Of a stretch of 64,000 bases of DNA, positions 14,521 through 29,716 are shown piece by piece (within the stretch, counting starts at the first letter, position 1; each line of letters starts with the position of its first letter). A program made the translations under genes and the position numbers. The notes under the pieces were generated by a model that saw only the letters and a program-made list of their open reading frames with translations, was not told where the DNA came from and made no database searches. Location of the stretch: contig FN648905.1 in NCBI GenBank assembly GCA_000310025.1, positions 62,001-126,000 on the forward strand, written 5' to 3'. Source of the DNA: Ectocarpus siliculosus. Its lineage: Eukaryota; Sar; Phaeophyceae; Ectocarpales; Ectocarpaceae.

Positions 14521-15960
14521 GATCTGGAGGTTCGTATATGCAGATACATGGAAACTCCAAGATATGACCAAGTCAAATCTAAAATCCGAAGATGAATCGA
14601 AGATTCGAAACTCCACAACTCAACAATTCACCCTCCCACACCTCTACATTAGATGGGCAAGGACCATCGCCGTGACACGAATGTGAAAGTACTAATTAAC
14701 AAAAAGGGAACAAAAGCAGAAGCCCAAACTGAAAAAACACGAAAAGACCACAATCCACAATGTAATGGTATTTGACCCCTTCCTTCAGAATCAATCACCT
14801 TCGAGCTGTGTGGAACTCTCTTGTCCGCCCACAGTAGTAGTAGCAGGTTGTTGTTGCTTTCCGTTGTTCTCTTTCTCTTGATTAACGCTTTCCAAGCCAA
14901 CTCACCATATCCCGCGCGCACACGATCATAGATCGTCTGTACGCACACACTGAACAGAAGGGCACATGTCTCGGCATAAAGCCCTGATCTAGCATGACGT
15001 CACGTCTTAGCATCCGACGGCGCCAAATAACTATGATCAACCACGATCACATGTCTACCTCCAAATACCATAACAATAGCCCACCCTGAGTGGACGTAGA
15101 TGCAGATACAGAAGCAAACCTCGGAGGGACTCTAGTCAATCAAGAGGACTGCGGGATGCATCGAAGATACGACAACTCAAAACCCTCACCCGCACCTCTC
15201 CGTTAACCAAGCCAAAGAAGCGGAACCAAGAAAGAAGAAAACAAAGAAACCGGGGGCGGCAAACTCGGCGGATAAAATCGGAAAAAGGCACATGGGTGCG
15301 AAAAATAACAAAAACATCCAAACCGAATAGACCACAACACGAAGTAACGAAATCGTGAAGAGAAAATCACAAACGATCTCGTACGAATGAACCGATCGAA
15401 TACGCAATCAAGTAAGCCAGAACCTTACGGGAAGGGGGGCGACGATGCGATCGAGTGCTGAAACGTAAACATAAAGAATAAGAAACGAAAACCGAGTCTG
15501 CAAAGGATCAAACGGCATAGAAAACCGATAGGGGTCCACCAAAACCGAGAAAAGCGTGGCAAAAGGGGGTTTCCGGGGAACGTAAACAACGGCCAAAGAA
15601 AAGGACAGAACCAACGCCAAAAACAACGGTCGCATGTCATGATGCAACGTGGTTGCGATCGGGGTGGGGCGAGGAAAACAATCCTACTTGTGCGTCAAGG
15701 CCAATTGGATGAAGAAAAATGCTAAAGAAAGTAGCAAGATGGAACACGTTGGCCGTGGCATGCAATAGAAGCACTGGCGGAACGTTGGACCATAAAATAT
15801 GCAAAGCAAACCATAGGGGGGGGAGTTAAGCGATGCACCCAATTTGGGTGTAACCGCAACTAATGACGAACCTAGGTCGCACTGAAAAATAGGGAAAGGG
15901 GAGCGACTACTTTCGACAACCGACCGAGAAGTGACAAACGGGGGCGAGAAAGTACGCAAC
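14521..15960. other. AT/purine-rich spacer, no gene recognised
   Basis: The plus strand is A-rich with many AAAAC and GAAA runs, so the minus strand shows several hydrophobic Phe/Leu-rich open frames (for example 15136-15407 and 15408-15647). These look like composition artefacts rather than membrane proteins. This may be 3' untranslated or LTR sequence of element 1, but no LTR pair could be shown. Confidence 0.3.
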
Positions 15961-15964
15961 ACAA

Positions 15965-16235
15965 AAGCAAGAGCCAGTCTCAAAGAGATTGAGAGGGCGA
16001 GCGGCAAGCACAAAGGAGCAATAGCCAGTCTCAAAATATACGAGAGGGCGAGCTAGAAACATACAGAAGCAATAGCCAGTCTCAAAAATAGATCGAGAGG
16101 GCGAGCTAGAAACATACAGAAGCAATAACCAGTCTCAAAAATAGATCAAGAGGGCGAGCTGGAAAAATACAGAAGCAATAGCCAGTCTCGAAAATAGATC
16201 GAGAGGGCGAGCTAGAAACATACAGACGAATATAC
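15965..16235. repeat. 51-53 bp minisatellite, five copies, next to the 3' end of element 1
   Basis: The unit contains CAATAGCCAGTCTCAAAAAT and GATCGAGAGGGCGAGC followed by TAGAAACATACAGAAG. Starts of CCAGTCTC fall at about 15973, 16024, 16075, 16128 and 16181. The array sits immediately downstream, on the minus strand, of the Tudor-like domain end. It is followed by an ACATA-rich simple repeat (16215-16285). Confidence 0.75.
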
Positions 16236-16303: not shown

Positions 16304-16935
16304 TCAGCCAGGGGCAACGATATCCGTACCGCGCGATTCGTCTACATTGCGCAAGATACCTCGCATGAAGGGACTACTTCGGTGCAGCTGAAGGCACCAA
16401 GAACCACAAACAGCTCCCAAAGCTGTCGTGTAGCGCGAAGGGGAGAGGGTGATCTTGACAGATCCAGGGTCATCCAGGAAGCGAACGAAGAAAATGTTTG
16501 TAGTTGGAGTGTGTCCGGAGATTTTCCCTAGCCACCATAGAGCGTCTTGAGCCTTGTACCAGAAGTGTGCGCCAACAGGCAGCACGGTGTTGCGAAAACG
16601 GCGGGCCCAAACATCGCGGGGAACATATTCGTACCCAGGCGACGAGGAACGCTCGCCTATGATGCGAGACAGTTCACGTTCCGCTGCGCCGATGCGCATG
16701 CGACGATACAGACTGTTAGTCTGCCGGTGTTGGTCGGGTGTACCAGCCCAATACAGAAGAATCTGTTTTCGGGAGTGTTGGAGGTCCATTTCTCGTTCCC
16801 ACGATGACCGCAGCAGACCTTTCCAGTGGGTCTCGTACATGACTGCGATAACGCCACCACGTCCTCGAACCGACTGGTGTCCCGCGATTTTCTCAACCTC
16901 GAGCCTGCGGACAGGCGCCGAAAACATCGTCCGCG
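16304..16935 (-). pseudogene. Element 1: chromodomain and Tudor-like C-terminal domain
   Basis: After a frameshift near 16930 the open frame continues VEKIAGHQSVRGRGG, YETHWKG, SWEREMDLQHSRKQILLYW. This matches the chromodomain pattern V-E-K-I ... V-x-W-K-G ... S-W-E-x-E-x-x-L ... Y. About 70 residues later comes a second compact domain: VGAHFWYKAQDALWWLGKIS, FFVRFLDDPGSVKITL, SRYTTALGAV, GSWCLQLH. I read it as a Tudor/PWWP-like beta-barrel; this is an inference from the aromatic pattern, not a certain assignment. The same two domains recur in element 2, so the arrangement is ancestral. Their presumed role is to direct integration to modified chromatin. Confidence 0.7.
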
Positions 16936-18317
16936 GTAAAATGGTACGGCGGAGACTTCGTCGTGTAGTTGTTGAGAACATACTGCGTGAGGCCTGCAGG
17001 CAAGAACCGAGGCATGTCGTCACTATCGTGTGGGTTCGCACACGGTTTGCAACGAGCGACAGAAACTCGGTGCTTGGCATCCACTCCGGGCATATCGGAG
17101 GGAAGATCCAAGTACAGGAGCTTGTCAGCCACCGGGCTGCCATCGGGAGCCTTGTTGCAAGGACCGACTGCGAGGATTTTAAAAGGACCTGTCCAATTCA
17201 AGGACAGTTTCTTCTTGAGTACCTGGGAGTTAGCGTCTGTGCGGGCCTTGGAAGTGAGTTTGGCACCTTGGCGGACGGTAGCCAAATGGTTGTAGACCCA
17301 CACCCAACCACCGGTAGCGTAAACGGGTAGTTTGTGTAAGGCATCAGACAATTTGGAGTTCCGTCTTTCCATACGGGAAAATCTGAGTGCGTGTTGTTCA
17401 CGCACTAGCTCGTAGGAGCGCCGTTGCCGATCGGCGGCAAGGTTGCAATACTCGAGCTGATCGCGGGCAAGCGACTGGTGACCACGAGCGTAAATGTTGT
17501 CAAAACCGGTCAGTGGAAACCTGGGAAGGCGCGCCATATGCACCTCATTGGGCACCAATCCTGTGGCAGCGCTAACGGAGTTGTTGTACGCGAATTCAAC
17601 ATGCGGGAGATGAATGTCCCAATCATCTTGTCGTTCGTTCACAACCATAGCCAGCATCTGGACCATGGTGTGGTTCACGCGCTCAACTCCTCCGTTGCCG
17701 CTAGGGTGGTACGCGCTCGTCGTAATTTTCCGAAAGCGCAGCAATTTTAGGATGGCAACCGACAGTTTGGAGCAAAACTGCATTACATTGTCAAAAAGAA
17801 TGCTGAGGGGGCATCCCCAAACAGGCATGTATTTATTGACAAGGACGTCAGCTGTACCTTCAGCTGTGAACTCGGCGTCAGTCACGGCGTACATATTGGC
17901 TCTCCGACTGAAACGGTCGGTGAATAGCAAAATATACGAGAAACCTCGCGGAGTTGTGGGAAGCGGACCAAAATAGTCGACGCTAATCGCGACCCCGGGT
18001 GCCGAAGGCAGAGGGATCGTGAGAATCGGCCAGCGAATAGTCTGGCGCGCAGTTTTGCGGGCCTGACATTTCAAACATCGCCGAATCCACCAACGAGTAC
18101 TGATACTCATCCCAATCCACCAGTAAAACCTCTCAAGCAAGCTAAGCGTGCGAGCGGTACCAAGGTGGCAGAGGGCGTTGGCATGCCAAGCTTGCATGAC
18201 CCAAGGTCGCATTAACATGGGCACGTAAATACGAGTGGGTTCGTCATTCAACAGACTTGCAGCTCGTCCTCCGGGACGGTCAGAAGAGACCGGGGGCTTG
18301 GTATTCTTTCGTACCAA
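16893..18317 (-). pseudogene. Element 1: integrase
   Basis: The 474-codon frame shows the zinc-binding HHCC motif (His45, His51, Cys81, Cys84; numbering from its first in-frame start). It also has the DDE core: Asp114 in SVDYFGPLP, Asp176 in FDNVMQF, and Glu212 in GNGGVERVNHT. The last two are 35 residues apart, the classical D,D(35)E spacing. The usual S-D-N-G-T-Q-F around the second Asp has become F-D-N-V-M-Q-F here; element 2 keeps the usual form. Upstream coding continues in another frame (LNPAELEFREFVERY, QPLPIDFF-like), and downstream coding shifts frame near 16930, so as it stands the protein is interrupted. Confidence 0.85.
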
Positions 18318-19350: not shown

Positions 19351-22300
19351 TCATTCGAGGCCCGTGTTTGCGAAAATCCGCAAATCATCCGAAGTGAGGG
19401 GTAGCCCACCCAAAGCGGCGTTCTCGCTCGGGGGCGCCAGCCCACCCAAACCAACGCCAGGCGTGGTTTGTCCGGGTGATACGTGACCTGTGGCTCGGAT
19501 CAGATACACACCAACGTCTTCTGGGGACGTCAAACTACTGTTACCGTTGATGTCGGCGGCAGTAGGCTCAATCGGCAGACGAGACAGCATGTCAGCATTT
19601 CCGTTGGAGGCACCTCGTCGGTACTCCAACGTGTATGCTTCAAGGAACTCAATCCAGCGTTGGACGCGTGGGTTGTGCTCGCTGATTTTTGACAAAATTT
19701 CCAGCGCCTTATTGTCGGAATAGATGCGGAAGTGTGTGCCACGAAGGTATTCGCGGAGGCGCTTGATCGCCCATACAACGGCTCCTGCTTCGAGATCGAG
19801 AGCGGTCCAGTTGCGTTCAGCGTCGAGCGTGGCTCTGCTGATGAAAACGATCGGCCGTACCGAGCCGTCTTTCTGTTCTTGCTCCAGCGCGGCGCCGAGA
19901 CCGTTGGGGCTGGCGTCACAGCAAAGACGTACAGGGCGTGTACCGTCCGCGATAGCGTCCCAATCAGGAAACACTAAAATGGGCGGTTTCGCGAGCTCAG
20001 CCAGTAGGCTGCGAACAGTTGTTTCCATGTCGCTCGTGAAAGCGAAGGGAACACCTTCTTCGAGCAAGTGCGTAATGGACTTCACACGCTTGGCCACGTC
20101 TCTGAGGAAACGTCGGTAGTAGCTCAGACCACCCATGAGTGACCTGACTTGCTTGACGGTCGTAGGCATGGGCATACCTGCCAGGGCGGCTACTTTATGG
20201 GCGTTGGGGAGGACACCTTTCGAAGATATGGTGTGCCCCAAGAAGTCAGCCTTGGTGGTACCGATGGTGGCTTTCGAGGGAGAAAGTTTGAGGTCGTACT
20301 TTCTCAACCGTTCGAAGAGCGTGGGCATATTACGGACATGCTGCGGCGGGCCTTCGTCAAAAACAACGACGTCATCGAGGTATGCCTCGACTCCATCGAG
20401 TCCTTTGATTACTTCGTTAATCACTTTTACAAGGTGGCCTGCGGATTGGCTAGCACCCATCGGCATGCGGAGCCATTCGAACAAACGAGTGGGGGTCGCA
20501 AATGCCGTAGGGGGGATAGTGTCCTTGTGGACAGTGATCTGATGGAAGGAACCCGTAAAATCGAATAGCGAGAAAATCGAACCTCTGTTGAGTTTCGTTA
20601 GAATCTCGTCGACTCGGGGAATGGGAAGTTGACCAATGCTGCTGATATGGTTCAACTTTCTGTAGTTAACCGTGATGCGTATTCCACCAGACTTCTTTGG
20701 TACAACCACGATGGGGCTGGAATAAGGAGAGGTCGAGTGTTGAATTAGGCCAGCAGCTGGATACTGGTCCAAAATGGCATCGACTTGCTTTGCAACCAAA
20801 GGATTCATACGGAACGGTTTGGACGTCACAGGGGGACAATCCGGAGGTACTTTGATCTCAAACGGCATCAGGGAACAGGACCCTAAAGCCGTCGAGGATG
20901 TGGAAAACACGTCTTGGAAATCATGCAAAAGATCACCAAGTTCTGTGATGACCTCTGGTGACCAACCACGACCGTGTAAATCAAACTTAACCAACTTCAG
21001 GTGAGGCGGCAAGCGATTCCACAATGACTCAAAGCTAACTCTCTGATCAGCGCTCAACCGCTCCATCACATGCTGTGGTGGCGGCGAGGGCGAAGTGTGA
21101 GCGGGGGCAGGGGCCGCAGGGGACGATTTCCCTGGGTCCGGCACAGGAGGATCGGTGGATCGTGGGTTGTGCACGAAGGGATCGTGGCAACGCACCTGCG
21201 GATCGACGGTCCTGTCCTCGTTATCCTCGGTAGAACCCAAAATAGGTCCAGGCACCGAACATGAAGTATCAGCTTCGTCACTAAACTGTTGTTCTAAATG
21301 CTCTACCGGGACGCGCATCAGCGGGGCGGCAGCAGTAACGAGCAAGTCTCCTGGCTCAAGTTCTGCAGCACCCGCGAGCGGCACAAACTGACGTCCGTCG
21401 TAGACAAAAATTTCTTCGTGCGACGAAACATCAGGCAACATGTCGACAAGGTATTGACCGGTCAGAGCCGGTGTACCGTTGGAACGCACCAAGTTGACCT
21501 CGGTCATTTGGTGGTCGTCTGACAATGAGGTACCCGTTGGCCCTGCATAGTGGAGCTGGAATTGGTCCGCCGGGGCTGTGAAATTGGGCACATACGCGAA
21601 CGCACCAGAATCATCCTGGTGGGCAAGCGTATATTCACCAAAAACGCGATTGTCCAGTGGCCTCGGAGGCAACATACGATACGTGCGAGTGTTAAATCGC
21701 ATGGAACTATCGCGTCCCAATAGGATGGGAAACTGCATGGTGTTTGCAGGGACGATGTGCGCCCAAACGGCAAGAGAAGCCGAAGGGGTATCACCGTGGA
21801 AAAATTGCACACTCAGACGGACTGTATCAGACGTTTGAAGAGATTCGGATTTACCAAAACCTCCCCAAGAACGTGCGTTACCGTGCGAGATGCAAGCCTC
21901 TGAGATGGCTCCCATGGCTTTGAGGGTACCGACAGCGTTGCTGTTGATGAACGTGGCCGGTGATTCTGAATCAAGCAGAGCGGCGCAACCATATTGTGAT
22001 TTGGCTGGCCCAGCGTGGATTTTGACTCGAGTCGTAAATGAAGCGTCGTCAACTGTAACAACACCACCTACGAGGCAAGGACCATGCTCAGCGAACAAAG
22101 GTACACGATCTTCCTCATTACACTCAGCGGACGTAACCGCGAGAACTTCAGCGCTGTGATCCCTTGGAACATGCGCTGATTTTATGCGGTAACCTGACGA
22201 CGGGGCGGCCTCCTGGGCGGCAGCCGTCGAAATACGCTCTTGCGTTTCAGGGTTAACCTCATCTATTGTATTCCGGAGCTGAGCGTTGGACGAAACTTGT

Positions 22301-22983
22301 GGTGGAAGTGTCGGCGTCGGCGCGTGCTCTCGGAGTAGGTCTCGAACAACCTGCAGGCTTTTGCCAAGCAGATTGGAGCCCCGCCATAAAGAGGGTCGGA
22401 TTGCAGCAGGATCATCTGCGCGATGCCCAATGCCCCATATGGCATCGAATGGGCTAGGTTCGACGAGAATTTTGTCACCGGTGCCCAAACGATGTTGTCG
22501 CATAGCGGGATATTGCGAAAATTTGTAGTAGGAGGCGACACGCACCACGTTTTCACGCTCGCGCTCCCAAACAGCTTCGTCGAACCCTTTAACTTGGCGT
22601 CCGTAACGCTTATGTTTAATCGGGTCAGAAACACGCATAATCCGCCGCAACGTATCTTGGTCGCCAAAGAGACGAGCCTGGGCAGCCGCGAAGAATTGTG
22701 CTCCACAAGAGTATTCCACACCATCTACAGTAAAGATGGAGGGTGTCCATTGCGAGAAAACCGACGGGGCTTGCCAGAACAACACCATGTCAGGTGTGCA
22801 GTACTCCTTGCTCGGATCAAACGCTGGCGGTGACCACCTGGCGTCGGTCGGAGGAGGAGGGTAGATACGAATACCAGCTATAGCGGAGGAGGGGGATGTC
22901 TGTTTCCCCGAGTCCTCTACTCTACCAACAGCGCAACCCGGTGGGGGTGTATAGTCTGTAGTGCTTTCGCTAGAATCCATCAC
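19351..22983 (-). CDS. Element 1: NADAR-protease-reverse transcriptase-RNase H polyprotein (1210 codons)
   Basis: Domains in order. Residues ~66-219: NADAR/YbiA-like (VLFWQAPSVFSQW, YGRQVKGFDEAVW, GTGDKILVEPSPFDAIWGIG, WRGSNLLGKSL). Residues ~310-430: retropepsin-like, with LLDSES at the usual DSG site and ILLGRD near the end. Residues ~700-960: Ty3/gypsy reverse transcriptase with VNYRKLN, FDFTGSFHQ, MPMGASQSAG and YLDD (868-871). Residues ~1015-1137: RNase H with Asp1023 (CCDASPNG), Glu1065, Asp1090 (YSDNKALE) and Asp1131. The frame is uninterrupted, unusual in an otherwise broken element. The first ATG codons (MMDSSES) lie just before the NADAR domain. No CCHC zinc knuckle is visible. Within NADAR, the family's usual C-x-E-Q and K-A positions read C-G-A-Q and Q-A, so ADP-ribose chemistry may be lost in this copy. 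Confidence 0.9.
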   Translation of the reverse strand: MMDSSESTTDYTPPPGCAVGRVEDSGKQTSPSSAIAGIRIYPPPPTDARWSPPAFDPSKEYCTPDMVLFWQAPSVFSQWTPSIFTVDGVEYSCGAQFFAAAQARLFGDQDTLRRIMRVSDPIKHKRYGRQVKGFDEAVWERERENVVRVASYYKFSQYPAMRQHRLGTGDKILVEPSPFDAIWGIGHRADDPAAIRPSLWRGSNLLGKSLQVVRDLLREHAPTPTLPPQVSSNAQLRNTIDEVNPETQERISTAAAQEAAPSSGYRIKSAHVPRDHSAEVLAVTSAECNEEDRVPLFAEHGPCLVGGVVTVDDASFTTRVKIHAGPAKSQYGCAALLDSESPATFINSNAVGTLKAMGAISEACISHGNARSWGGFGKSESLQTSDTVRLSVQFFHGDTPSASLAVWAHIVPANTMQFPILLGRDSSMRFNTRTYRMLPPRPLDNRVFGEYTLAHQDDSGAFAYVPNFTAPADQFQLHYAGPTGTSLSDDHQMTEVNLVRSNGTPALTGQYLVDMLPDVSSHEEIFVYDGRQFVPLAGAAELEPGDLLVTAAAPLMRVPVEHLEQQFSDEADTSCSVPGPILGSTEDNEDRTVDPQVRCHDPFVHNPRSTDPPVPDPGKSSPAAPAPAHTSPSPPPQHVMERLSADQRVSFESLWNRLPPHLKLVKFDLHGRGWSPEVITELGDLLHDFQDVFSTSSTALGSCSLMPFEIKVPPDCPPVTSKPFRMNPLVAKQVDAILDQYPAAGLIQHSTSPYSSPIVVVPKKSGGIRITVNYRKLNHISSIGQLPIPRVDEILTKLNRGSIFSLFDFTGSFHQITVHKDTIPPTAFATPTRLFEWLRMPMGASQSAGHLVKVINEVIKGLDGVEAYLDDVVVFDEGPPQHVRNMPTLFERLRKYDLKLSPSKATIGTTKADFLGHTISSKGVLPNAHKVAALAGMPMPTTVKQVRSLMGGLSYYRRFLRDVAKRVKSITHLLEEGVPFAFTSDMETTVRSLLAELAKPPILVFPDWDAIADGTRPVRLCCDASPNGLGAALEQEQKDGSVRPIVFISRATLDAERNWTALDLEAGAVVWAIKRLREYLRGTHFRIYSDNKALEILSKISEHNPRVQRWIEFLEAYTLEYRRGASNGNADMLSRLPIEPTAADINGNSSLTSPEDVGVYLIRATGHVSPGQTTPGVGLGGLAPPSENAALGGLPLTSDDLRIFANTGLE

Positions 22984-23463: not shown

Positions 23464-24180
23464 TCAGGCTGGTTTGCGGGCGGCAACGTGGTGTAATCGT
23501 GCGTTGTGCAAGCTGCTCGAGCTGTGTTTACTCGGGGAGCCGCCTTCAAGACAGGTCACTCCGTGAGTTCCTAACCTTGGGGTATGTTTACTGACGACAG
23601 CGCTGAAGCTGCCGTGTGTGCAAGCTGCTCGAGCTGTGTTAAAACTCGGGGAGCCGCCTTCAAGACAGGTCACTTCGTGAGTTCCTAACCTTGGGGTATA
23701 TGCATTGACGACAGCGCTGAAGTTGCCGTGATCGGGAGTGTGGGCCACACCATCTTCACCCGATGAGGCCGAGGCACTACCGCTTGTAGCGGAAGTGTCG
23801 GTTGTAGGAACAGGAGTGGTACACTCGACCGAACCTACTATACGCGCATCCTGCGACACATATCTAGCTGCTCCCTGTTTTGCCATCGGCGGGTCGGGGA
23901 GTAACGACAAGCCGCCGTTGGGCTGTCAGTTACCAGCATTATACGTTCCAGGAGTGCGGGCATTTGGGTTGGAGTCTACGGGGAGTCGGCTGTTGATTCG
24001 CAACGCCGGCTGCGTGTGTGTGGCAGACGCTGGAGCAGTACCTGCTTTAGACTGGTATGCTACCAATGTGTGGTGGCGGTTGATGCCACGTCTGAGTGTA
24101 TTGTTGCGGGTTTGGAGCGTTAACAGCGTATTGAACTCTATGAGCTGGTCTGCGGGAACGGCGCCGGTGTTGTTGGTCAT
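23464..24180 (-). pseudogene. Element 1: gag-like leader region with one in-frame stop
   Basis: From a Met at 24180 the frame reads MTNNTGAVPADQLIEFNTLL and stays open to a TGA at 23926-23928. It continues in the same phase from QPNGGLSLLPDPP to a stop at 23464. The phase equals that of the 1210-codon frame. The second half holds a 112-114 bp tandem duplication (23508-23733), encoding repeats of TPRLGTHxVTCLEGGSPS. By position this should be Gag, but no capsid or zinc-knuckle motif is recognisable. The stop may be a mutation or a readthrough signal. Confidence 0.4.
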
Positions 24181-24395
24181 TCGAGTTGCGTGAGCCTTGT
24201 GTTGTGGCAGTCGCAGGCGTACCAAACCAACGGGGGAAAACGGAACGCCACAGAGACGAAACACAAGGGGTCGTAGTACCAACCAACTGCCCACAATCGC
24301 GGCTGTATAAAATAAAAACCACTGACTATGACGAAACGACGTACCATACGACATCAAGTCGATCGTCCAAATGACGGGAAAAAGGGGTCGTAAGG

Positions 24396-25324: not shown

Positions 25325-26100
25325 CTAACTGATCGTACGACAAAAACAAAAGAACACCATACACTCAAGCGCTATTATAATCAGTGCGCGCAGGATCGCC
25401 GGAGAGCGGATCACCCGCCTCAGCACCACGCGACATATCGACATTACGAAGGATGCCCTTAAGGAAAGCGCGACCAAGGTGTACTTGGAGGCACCACGAT
25501 CCGCACACGGCATTGTGGCGGTATCACAACGAGCAGCGGAGAGGACGATCTTGATCGGCCCAGGCTCGTCGAGGAAGCGAACGATGTACAGTAGTGATTT
25601 TCGTGAAGAGTAGGTCCAGAAATCTTGCCCAGCCACCAGAGTCCATCTCGAGCCTTGTACCAGAAGAACGCGCCCACAGGAAGAGGAGCAGCGGAGAAGC
25701 TACGGTCCCAACTAGATCGAGAGACGAGGGAATACCCCGAAGGCAACTATCTCTCTCGTTTAGCACGTGCCAATTCCCGAGCAGCGGCACCAACGCGCAT
25801 GGCGCGATACCGCCGATTCGTCTGGCGATGTTGGTCGGGCGAACCCGCCCCAATACCGGAGAATGTGGGATCTGGAGTGCTGAAGGTCCATCTCGCGTTC
25901 CCAAGAAGGACGGAGAAGACCTTGTCCAGTGTGTCTGATACAAAACAGCAATGATACCACCACGACCACGAACAGACTGGTAACCCGTAATTTGGTCCCC
26001 ACCTCCAGACGTTCGACCGGAGTCGACACGTCGTCTTCCGTCACATGGTACGGAGGAGATTTGTTTGTGTAGTTGTGCAGAACGTACTGAGTGAGGCCGG
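25325..26100 (-). pseudogene. Element 2: chromodomain and Tudor-like domain, frameshifted
   Basis: Pieces in different frames give ITGYQSVRGRGG, LLRPSWEREMDLQHSRSHIL, then LPVGAFFWYKARDGLWWLGK, VRFLDEPGPIKIVLSAARC and a tail with ILRNVDMSRG-like sequence. All align in order with element 1. At least two frame changes lie between 25990 and 25760. Conservation of WYKxxDxLWWLGKI and VRFLDxPGxxKIxLSxxRY between two diverged copies supports a genuine domain. Confidence 0.7.
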
Positions 26101-27450
26101 TAGGCAAAAACCTAGGAATATCATCGGTGTCATGCGGGTTGAGACACGGTTTGCAACGCGCAACCGAAACAGACGTTTCGAGTCTGTGCCTGGCACGTCC
26201 GACGGAAGGTCCAACAACAGCAACTTAGCTGCCAAAGGACTGCCATCAGGAGCCTTCCGGCAGGGGCCAACAGCCAAAATCTTGAATGGACCAGTCCATA
26301 GCAAAGAAAGTTTCGCTTTGAGTACCTTATCATCAGTACCGACCCGATCACCTGAGCGAATGGTGGATTCGGAGTTATACACCCAAACCCAACCACCGAC
26401 AGTGTAGGTTGGAAGCTTGTGCAAAGCATCCGAAAGAGCGGAATTGCGACGCTCAATTCGTGAAACGGACAAGGTGTGCTGTTCCCGCACCAGCACGTAA
26501 GCACGACGCTGGCGATCGGCAGCAAGATCTCAATATTCAAGGTGATCACGATCTAAGCCTTGATGACCCCGAGCATAAGGATGCTCGATAACGGTCATTG
26601 GTAGTCGAGGCAGACGGTTCATGTGCACTTCATTCGGCGCTAAACCGGTGGCGGTGCTAACAGAGTTGTTATACGCAAACTCCACGTGAGGGAGATGGGC
26701 ATCCCAGTCGCCTTGCCGTTCGTTGACTACCATGGCAAGCATTTGCGCCATAGTGTGGTTGACACGCTCTACACCGCCATTACCGTTCGGGTGGTAAGCG
26801 CTAGTCGCCACTTTGCGTACCCCGAGAAGCTTGTAGACAGCGCGCGACAGTTTGGAACAGAACTGCGTGCCATTGTCAGACAAGAGGCTCGAGGGGCAAC
26901 CCCAAAAAGGGATGTACCGATCGACCAATATATCTGCAGTGCCTTCGGCAGTACACTCAGCGGCCGTGACGGCGTACATGTCAGCACGTCGACTGAAACG
27001 GTCGGTGAAGAGCAGAAACGGTGGTTGGTACAGGGCCGAAATAATCGACACTCACGGAGGTGCCAGGTCCGGATGGCAACGGCATGCTCAAAATAGGCCA
27101 CCGCGCCGTGTGTCGAGACGTTTTGCGAGCTTGACAGCGCAGGCAATGGCGGATCCACCATTTTGTAGGAGCGCTCGTGCCCACCCACCAATAAAAACGC
27201 TCCAACATACACAATGTCGAGCAGCACCACAGTGACATGCATCGGCATGGCATAGCTGCATAATCCACGGGCGCATCAACATGGGAACATAAACCCGAAC
27301 AGGTTCATCATTCAGAAGACGCGCCGCACGCCCACCAGGGCGTGAGGACGAAGTGGACGGAATTGGAGTGGGTTTCCGTACGAGGAGAACCACGCCATCG
27401 ACATCGACATGCAAACGACTTTTGACTGCCAATTCGCGGATGTCCGAAAA
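26100..27450 (-). pseudogene. Element 2: integrase, frameshifted
   Basis: Fragments give KWWIRHCLRCQARKT (second half of the zinc motif), SVSVDYFGPVP (first Asp), LLSDNGTQFCSKL (second Asp, canonical form) and NGNGGVERVNHTMAQM (Glu). Then come HLPHVEFAYNNS and the C-terminal TGPFKILAVGPC stretch. Frame changes occur near 27050, 26520 and 26100. The catalytic D,D,E residues are all present, but no continuous protein can be made as it stands. Confidence 0.8.
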
Positions 27451-28082
27451 TGACGGTTGACGGCGTAACGGGATGTGATCAAGAAAACCCGGCGGCAAAG
27501 CCGAAGGCTGGCCGAGTTGAAGATAACGGATGGTGGCATCACACACCTGTTCGCTGCGTTGTTCTCGTGCCCAATCTGAATGAGAAAAACTCGCGACAGA
27601 TTCGCGGAAGTCGAGTTCAGCGCGCGAAGGCGCAACATCCTCAACAGCCGGTGGGACGGGCGAAGACCAAGGAATGGCTCTGACGTGGGCGCCGATGTCG
27701 ACGCACCCCCGCGTGGCAATGGCTCTGACGTGGGCGCCGATATCGACGCACTAACGCTTGGCAATGGTTCTGACGTGGGCGCCGATGTCGACGCACTCAC
27801 GCGAGGGGTGGCTGGCGAGACCGGGCCCGAAGGCGTCCGAATGACGGAATCGTTCTGTCGGTGATCCGACGAACGAGATGCACGAAGTGCAACAACCGCA
27901 GGGGTGGTTACCGGAGATTCCTCAGAGTCCGAAAAACCATAATCAACAGCGGGGCGAGGAGCACCATCAGCAGCGGCCGTACGCCCACGAGTTCGTGTTG
28001 AAATCACTTCGGTGGGATCAAGTGAGCGTGGGCGCGAGACGCCACGATAGGGGACACGAACGGTGTCACCCCCATCTTCCAC
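27450..28082 (-). pseudogene. Element 2: linker region with 45-bp tandem repeat
   Basis: The frame starts MEDGGDTVRVPYRGVSR then PTEVISTRTRGRTAAADG, matching the element 1 linker. It contains three 45-bp units (27674-27800) encoding STSAPTSEPLP-type 15-residue repeats. The Ser/Pro/Thr-rich content fits a flexible tether. The homologous element 1 region lacks this repeat. Confidence 0.6.
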
Positions 28083-28437: not shown

Positions 28438-29716
28438 ATAGGCACACAGCTATTCCGACGTCGAAGGACTTGTCAATCCAGCTGTAGATTGGACGGGGCT
28501 TCAATTTGGTGGAGGTTAGGCAAAACGTTTAGGCATAAATTGATCGAGATCGGAGAAATTTTGGTGTCGGCAGCACCTGCTGCATGCTGCTCGTGTTTCG
28601 TGCTTGAGAGTGTCGGTCACCGACACAGCCAACCAACAACGCAGAAGGCGCCAATCAAGCTGAAACTTGCGAAGGGCTTCTCAAGTAGTGCAGGACGGCC
28701 GATGGGGGTGATTACTCACGTCTCGCGCGTTCGGCTAAAAAAAGTGCGTGGTTCAGGCCTTCGGATCATTCATTCATTCATCATTTTCTGTGAAAGCTCT
28801 AGAGAGCGTATCGGTCTCTTAGAGGAATTTCAGACAGAAAATTGCGTTGTGACCGCAAAACAAGCGGCCACAACATTCTGTTGGTGCAGTTATACCATCG
28901 TCCTTACAACATGCGAGGGACGTCCCAAATTTTTTTCAAAGGGATAATGGCCCAATGAAATTCCTTACCGGAAACCCTGTTTCTGAGCACTATCTTACCG
29001 TACATCCATTTTCATCAAAATCGAAAAGAACGCGAATTTATTCCCGGCGGATCTGCTACAAAAAACGGGGTGTGATTTGTCCACGTTCTTCTCGAAATAC
29101 ACCAAAAGAGAAATGGAGCGAAAAGTTCCCCTGTTTTATATTTTGCACCCCTCCTGTACAACAAACTACATGGGTTGGTGATGTATCTGTTCCGCAATTT
29201 TTTGCGCGCGCGCGAAAAAAAAAAATGATACCGTCGTTTTGCGGGGAACATATTGCTTCCTCGTCGGGTAGTTGCACGGTGTGGCCCGGACCTCTCGGTG
29301 GCAGGCCAAATAGGCACACAGCTATTCCGGCGTCGAAGGACTTGATAATCCAGCTGTAGATTGGACGGGGCTTCAATTTGGTGGAGGATAGGCAACGTTT
29401 AGGCATAAATTGATCGAGATCGGAGCAATTTTGGTGTCGACAGCACCTGCTGCATGCTGCTCGTGTTTCGTGCTTGAGAGTGCCGGTCACCGACACAGCC
29501 AACCAACAACGCAGAAGGCGCCAATCAAGCTGAAACTTGCGAAGGGCTTCTAAAGTAGTGCAGGACGGCCGATGGGGGTGATTACTCACGTCTCGCGCGT
29601 TCGGCTAAAAAAAGTGCGTGGTTCAGGCCTTCGGATCATTCATTCATTCATTCATAATTTTCTTTACCGCTCTGTGAAACCTCTAGAGAACGTATTATCG
29701 GTCTCTGACAGGAATT
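28438..29716. repeat. ~400 bp direct repeats (28438-28828 and 29310-29716) flanking ~480 bp
   Basis: Both copies start ATAGGCACACAGCTATTCC and end in TCGGTCTCTNANAGGAATT, with more than 90% identity by eye. They contain TGCATGCTGCTCGTGTTTCG and a CATT microsatellite that differs in copy number. The internal 481 bases hold no recognised protein. Two explanations fit: a terminal-repeat miniature retrotransposon (TRIM-like) or a simple tandem duplication of an 872-bp unit. No tRNA-complementary primer site was identified. Confidence 0.7.

Follow-up and report, generated by a model that had tools for sequence, protein, structure and literature searches.

The 64,000-nucleotide stretch of the brown alga Ectocarpus siliculosus analysed here (contig FN648905.1, positions 62,001 to 126,000; hereafter the window) contains a Ty3/Gypsy retrotransposon in a state of decay, from a lineage in which Pol starts in a YbiA-type NADAR domain. 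NADAR shares one open frame of 1210 amino acids, with a GTG start (1253 codons from stop to stop), with a protease region, reverse transcriptase (RT) and RNase H, as had been proposed in an earlier note made from the sequence alone. A profile search finds NADAR (PF08719) where that note put it, at amino acids 69-218 of the frame (E 1.3e-40; 139.8 bits against a Pfam cut-off of 35.1), and RVT_1 and RT_RNaseH match at amino acids 761-919 and 1015-1117. No Pfam protease model matched the protease region of the window frame, which is recognized only by the motifs LLDSES and ILLGRD. The integrase occupies a separate frame. The order protease, RT, RNase H and integrase, as in Ty3/Gypsy elements (Metaviridae), is present in the window, with the protease identified by motif only, and in its relatives.

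The fusion is repeated throughout the genome, of which we searched 189 Mb in 492 contigs. There are at least 150 NADAR places (the best 150 of 230 candidates were scored), and when the best 99 of 629 candidate matches to the window-type RT were scored, 84 had a same-strand NADAR no more than 6 kb upstream. The gap between the two is 1371-1598 nucleotides in 79 of these 84 pairs, and NADAR and RT have the same open-frame length in 32 pairs, including 23 of the 27 paired RTs whose frames reach 2000 codons or more. RT_RNaseH_2 matches (the best 150 of 383 candidates scored) divide at 86.5 bits, a threshold set post hoc: a scored NADAR, from the best 150 of 230, lies within 6 kb upstream in 0 of 73 matches at or above this value versus 59 of 77 below it. 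The 73 matches presumably represent other Gypsy lineages, and within the matches scored NADAR is restricted to one lineage.

Among 20 fetched loci (L031-L050), 19 contain both NADAR and RT; RT is missing from L031, and fragments of an additional copy are present in L043. Where present, the domains are ordered NADAR, protease region, RT, RNase H and integrase. The same fusion occurs in public proteins, of which P0003, P0125, P0127, P0129 and P0130 are labelled Ectocarpus sp. CCAP 1310/34, and three loci of viral relatives at 39-42% identity are found in IMG/VR. Two NADAR places lie in open frames whose lengths, 10887 codons (C3:3913787-3914242) and 6365 codons (C489:435177-435536), are possibly a result of masked letters. 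At C46:327197-327646 there is a full-length NADAR of low score (90.6 bits) with no scored RT in its vicinity; it may be a gene of the host or else an old copy of the element.

The NADAR of the window also matches the NCBIfam model TIGR02464, which describes a riboflavin-intermediate N-glycosidase, above its cut-off (E 2.6e-38), and matches the NCBIfam model of anti-phage NADARs far under the cut-off (24.6 versus 240 bits). The relatives of solved structure, by sequence, are the Phytophthora nicotianae NADAR (PDB 8bau; 1e-13) and Escherichia coli YbiA (2b3w; 1.6e-8), which are similar in fold and sequence but not fused to RT. The earlier note had suggested a structure prediction; the model of the NADAR of L040 (pLDDT 96.3) superimposes on 8bau with TM 0.88 (E 3.1e-12), which supports a YbiA fold for this family.

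Candidate catalytic residues were placed by aligning the copies to 8bau and by spacing. From the same spacing, E43 and K50 probably correspond to E88 and K95 of the E. coli C7 NADAR, which have been mutated; E125 is equated with D171 in PMC11543638, which the roles of the catalytic residues follow as well. Both E43 and K50 are retained in 36 of 37 genome copies, 30 of which are top-scoring matches and several near-identical. D130 is likewise retained in 36 of 37. Glu rather than Asp or His at the position of E125 defines the YbiA subfamily (PMC11543638, PMC11125620), and all 37 copies, the window included, have Glu there. Nine retroelement-type public proteins, eight with RT and one (P0002) with the protease region only, have K50 and E125 in all nine, E43 in eight (Asp in the other) and R93 in eight. 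We consider it likely that the NADARs of this family are catalytically competent.

The window copy is the sole exception at the catalytic pair, with Ala and Gln in place of Glu and Lys; it could hardly act, and we reject it as an active enzyme. This loss fits plain decay after insertion, since the protease motif and the frames are damaged too, and a reading of it as a sign of new function is unsupported. The protease motif is DSE in the window, versus DSG or DTG in 17 of the 18 loci that yielded the motif (DSD in L047). The copy is defective because its integrase is out of frame, its Pol frame is broken off between the Gag-terminating UGA and NADAR, and its similarity to other copies gives out at 24221, a 5' truncation, and at 14761, the 3' end (Table 1). 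This copy looks dead. No pair of long terminal repeats was found in the window or in what was fetched of one relative with a long frame, and no CCHC knuckle was found in the window by pattern, where Gag is a remnant.

Table 1. Features of the NADAR-containing element and its neighbour in the window.
Feature	Position	Strand	Basis
Uninterrupted section of Pol: NADAR, protease region, RT and RNase H	19351..22983	-	ORF (open reading frame)
NADAR (YbiA-type), catalytic Glu to Ala and catalytic Lys to Gln	22330..22779	-	Pfam PF08719 and alignment
Protease active-site motif LLDSES (LLD[S/T]GS in 17 of 18 loci with motif)	21961..21978	-	Motif
Reverse transcriptase RVT_1, YLDD motif retained	20227..20703	-	Pfam and motif
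RNase H (RT_RNaseH)	19633..19941	-	Pfam
Integrase H2C2 zinc finger and core, separate frame (ORF 16893-18317)	17703..18224	-	Pfam
Weak chromodomain-like stretch	16748..16900	-	PF00385, E 9e-4, 19.5 bits versus cut-off 25.1
UGA separating Gag and Pol, followed by C	23926..23928	-	Junction shared by 16 fetched loci
Possible readthrough stem, 5' arm 9 nucleotides past UGA	23888..23916	-	Arms placed by homology to L046
Gag 3' remnant, 5'-truncated at 24221	23929..24221	-	Homology to other copies
Element 3' end with internal tandem-like repeats; probable end of terminal repeat	14761..16232	-	Homology
Second element of same clade (C85 type), integrase to C-terminus	25424..27610	-	76% DNA identity to L050

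Toward its 3' end, at 15956-16232, the element has internal tandem-like repeats that are multiplied also in L040, L041 and L046. Directly upstream lies part of another element, distinct from this one but belonging to its clade; this fragment includes an rve match in 26530-27051, slightly below the Pfam cut-off, and is without NADAR. Outside the element, about 350 bases are directly duplicated at 97% identity (28438-28784 and 29310-29655).

The NADARs were placed in a tree of 55 sequences, in which bacterial rows were thinned to 17 and from which 6 of 137 public proteins were omitted for want of a full-length NADAR. One clade with 98/93 support contains 25 rows, of which 22 are labelled as retroelements and three are short public proteins of unspecified context. 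The retroelement label requires four changes in this tree because those three short proteins carry no label. No bacterial or eukaryotic NADAR stands out in this tree as the nearest neighbour of the clade. Trees of RT and NADAR from the same 18 elements have their main groups in common, with several weak forks on the NADAR side, and as judged from these trees NADAR has been inherited together with RT. The clade, the agreement of the trees and the distribution of matches described above bear out the stable fusion in a distinct group of elements that the earlier note had anticipated.

The ratio of non-silent to silent change (omega), taken over the same eight copies, was 0.119 in NADAR, compared with 0.058 in RT, and these estimates show NADAR to be under purifying selection in the family. 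Among seven representatives, 19 of 21 pairs are near saturation at silent sites (pS 0.73-0.90), with pN of 0.24-0.38 in those pairs. Between subfamilies, NADAR averages 60% identity (19 pairs), RT 64% (19 pairs), RNase H 69% (eight pairs), integrase 71% (nine pairs) and the protease region 51% (13 pairs); the linker from the UGA to NADAR has 25% (six pairs of non-window copies). Together, the conserved catalytic site, selection and joint inheritance with RT point to NADAR being an enzyme rather than a passenger.

The relatives also place NADAR with respect to Gag. Of 19 oriented loci, a set that omits L031, 17 have an upstream Gag with a CCHC knuckle. In 16 of these 17 loci Gag terminates at a UGA followed by C, and in L035 it terminates at UAA. 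NADAR is in the same frame as Gag in 10 of the 16 UGA-C loci, and in seven (L039, L041, L044, L046, L047, L049 and L050) nothing interrupts that frame between the UGA and NADAR; in the others it is shifted or stopped. Because a separate zinc-knuckle Gag ends at UGA-C and NADAR follows in the same frame, NADAR is a Pol domain and not a substitute for Gag.

This arrangement suggests that Pol may be made by readthrough of the UGA-C at the end of Gag, in which case NADAR and RT would share one low level of production. UGA-C is a leaky stop context, and gammaretroviruses use a spaced structure after the stop. A stem is possible 9 nucleotides past the UGA in representatives of five subfamilies (L046, L049, L050, L047 and L032), and not one of 1000 dinucleotide shuffles attained its summed length there, although the position was picked after the folds had been viewed and three of the five representatives are ordinary singly (0.08 to 0.19). 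In L046 and L032, moreover, the 5' arm was paired elsewhere than with the aligned 3' arm. In the five-row alignment 93% of cells pair, a value as high in 116 of 500 shuffles and falling to 23-73% when slid; two-sided changes occur in two of six pairs, a figure at least matched by 40 of 500 shuffles. RNAalifold predicts ten pairs, three with two-sided changes. As single sequences of 120 nucleotides, four of the five folds are unremarkable (z -1.11 to 0.54) and L032 is notable (z -3.14).

The earlier note had implied that the fusion was novel, but a NADAR-Gypsy fusion has already been published by Dinatale et al. in 2025 (PMC12477816), the only description of such a fusion that our literature searches on NADAR with retroelements brought up. 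Their Gypsy lineage, exemplified by Gypsy-12_Ec32, has a lineage-specific NADAR in the N-terminal region of Pol, as does the window family, when the two are compared by description. Three of their lineages have putative C-terminal chromodomains; the corresponding PF00385 match of the window is below the cut-off. These authors suggest possible horizontal acquisition, and regard the role of NADAR in retrotransposition as unclear while proposing RNA processing (PMC12477816). The evidence from the catalytic site, selection and readthrough comes from the present analysis, and the terms "readthrough", "read-through" and "stop codon" have 0 occurrences in the main text of PMC12477816.

Other associations of NADAR differ from this one. 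The Tx1 elements of Crassostrea gigas also carry a retrotransposon NADAR, but in ORF1 of a long interspersed nuclear element rather than in a long terminal repeat element, and the domain is divergent (PMC12477816). In certain animal RNA viruses NADAR and the polymerase belong to a single polyprotein, and a role against ADP-ribosylation has been proposed; these viruses are not retroelements and use an RNA-dependent RNA polymerase (PMC9503650). Esi0017_0056 of Ectocarpus is a NADAR protein whose closest matches outside Ectocarpus are prokaryotic; unlike the retroelement Pol, it is described as a stress-induced stress-tolerance gene with two predicted introns, encoding 391 amino acids (PMC7922944). 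Among the public proteins collected here, P0133, P0134 and P0136 combine NADAR with PF10021, PF03747 and PF01661 in about 1000 residues (precomputed Pfam), and we take them to be single proteins with several ADP-ribose-processing domains. In precomputed Pfam assignments, P0004 combines NADAR with a phosphatase-like domain and also with an NAD-dependent DNA ligase.

Published accounts describe NADARs as reversing guanosine ADP-ribosylation of DNA (PMC11543638, PMC11125620) and of RNA (PMC11833690), and a member of the YbiA subfamily, that of P. nicotianae, is described as also removing guanine-linked ADP-ribose. Our leading, still tentative interpretation, which we rate somewhat short of an even chance, is that NADAR works as a hydrolase, is carried into the particle together with RT and frees guanosines in the element's RNA or complementary DNA (cDNA) of ADP-ribose. 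Lying inside Pol, NADAR would be produced and probably packaged together with RT, and the template RNA or cDNA would then be its nearest substrate. Removal of ADP-ribose from guanosine bases there would keep the template copyable. We are equally tentative about nucleic-acid guanosine as the target. Counter-defence against ADP-ribosylation by the host, which the earlier note had also considered, is possible. A fuller scenario is doubtful: a single capture of a bacterial-type NADAR, kept by way of UGA readthrough as a working Pol enzyme that strips guanosine ADP-ribose on the element's own RNA or cDNA.

Several observations weigh against an eraser of guanosine marks. Genome searches that ignored introns gave 0 matches for DarT, hence no partner of the DarT-NADAR toxin-antitoxin kind, and 0 for Tpt1, and both are rejected as host partners; with PARP giving only four partial matches among 15 candidates, these searches identified no host enzyme that ADP-ribosylates guanosine. 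The window copy itself is catalytically compromised, the sample of copies is biased toward conserved residues, and 15 of the 99 scored RT matches are without a scored NADAR upstream. NADARs act also on riboflavin intermediates, and perhaps on free ADP-ribose derivatives.

This last activity underlies the best-surviving alternative, which we consider unlikely: NADAR could be an N-glycosidase on small molecules, such as ADP-ribose derivatives or riboflavin intermediates, that disarms a soluble host signal or salvages metabolites. The match to TIGR02464 is consistent with it, whereas the position in Pol beside RT suggests a substrate inside the particle. Soluble derivatives have been proposed as targets of viral NADARs, but the same study prefers macromolecular targets for those of eukaryotic RNA viruses (PMC9503650). 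It is less probable that NADAR acts after reverse transcription, clearing ADP-ribose at integration sites or breaks in the DNA of the host or the element. NADAR does act on guanosine-ADP-ribose in DNA (PMC11543638) and PARP-like exons are present in the genome, but these are just the four partial matches, and nothing that we saw supports PARPs making a mark on the guanosine base.

Slightly less probable again is a non-catalytic NADAR fold that binds ADP-ribose or is structural, which includes the Gag-like role offered in the earlier note. The window copy has lost its catalytic pair while the rest of its domain is open and recognizable, yet its damaged protease and frame make this loss attributable to decay; the catalytic pair is otherwise conserved and Gag is separate, so that a structural, Gag-like role is disfavoured. 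An assembly or frame artefact, the refutation that the earlier note had foreseen, has a negligible probability and, like chance, is ruled out by the at least 150 NADAR places, the near-constant spacing to RT, the fused public proteins and the publication, with nothing found in its favour.

If NADAR is an eraser of guanosine ADP-ribose on the element's own RNA or cDNA, brown algae would have a defence against retroelements based on ADP-ribosylation of nucleic acids, and the element would carry the enzyme that reverses it. An active NADAR in this lineage would suggest an unrecognized conflict over nucleic-acid ADP-ribosylation between a multicellular eukaryote and its retroelements.
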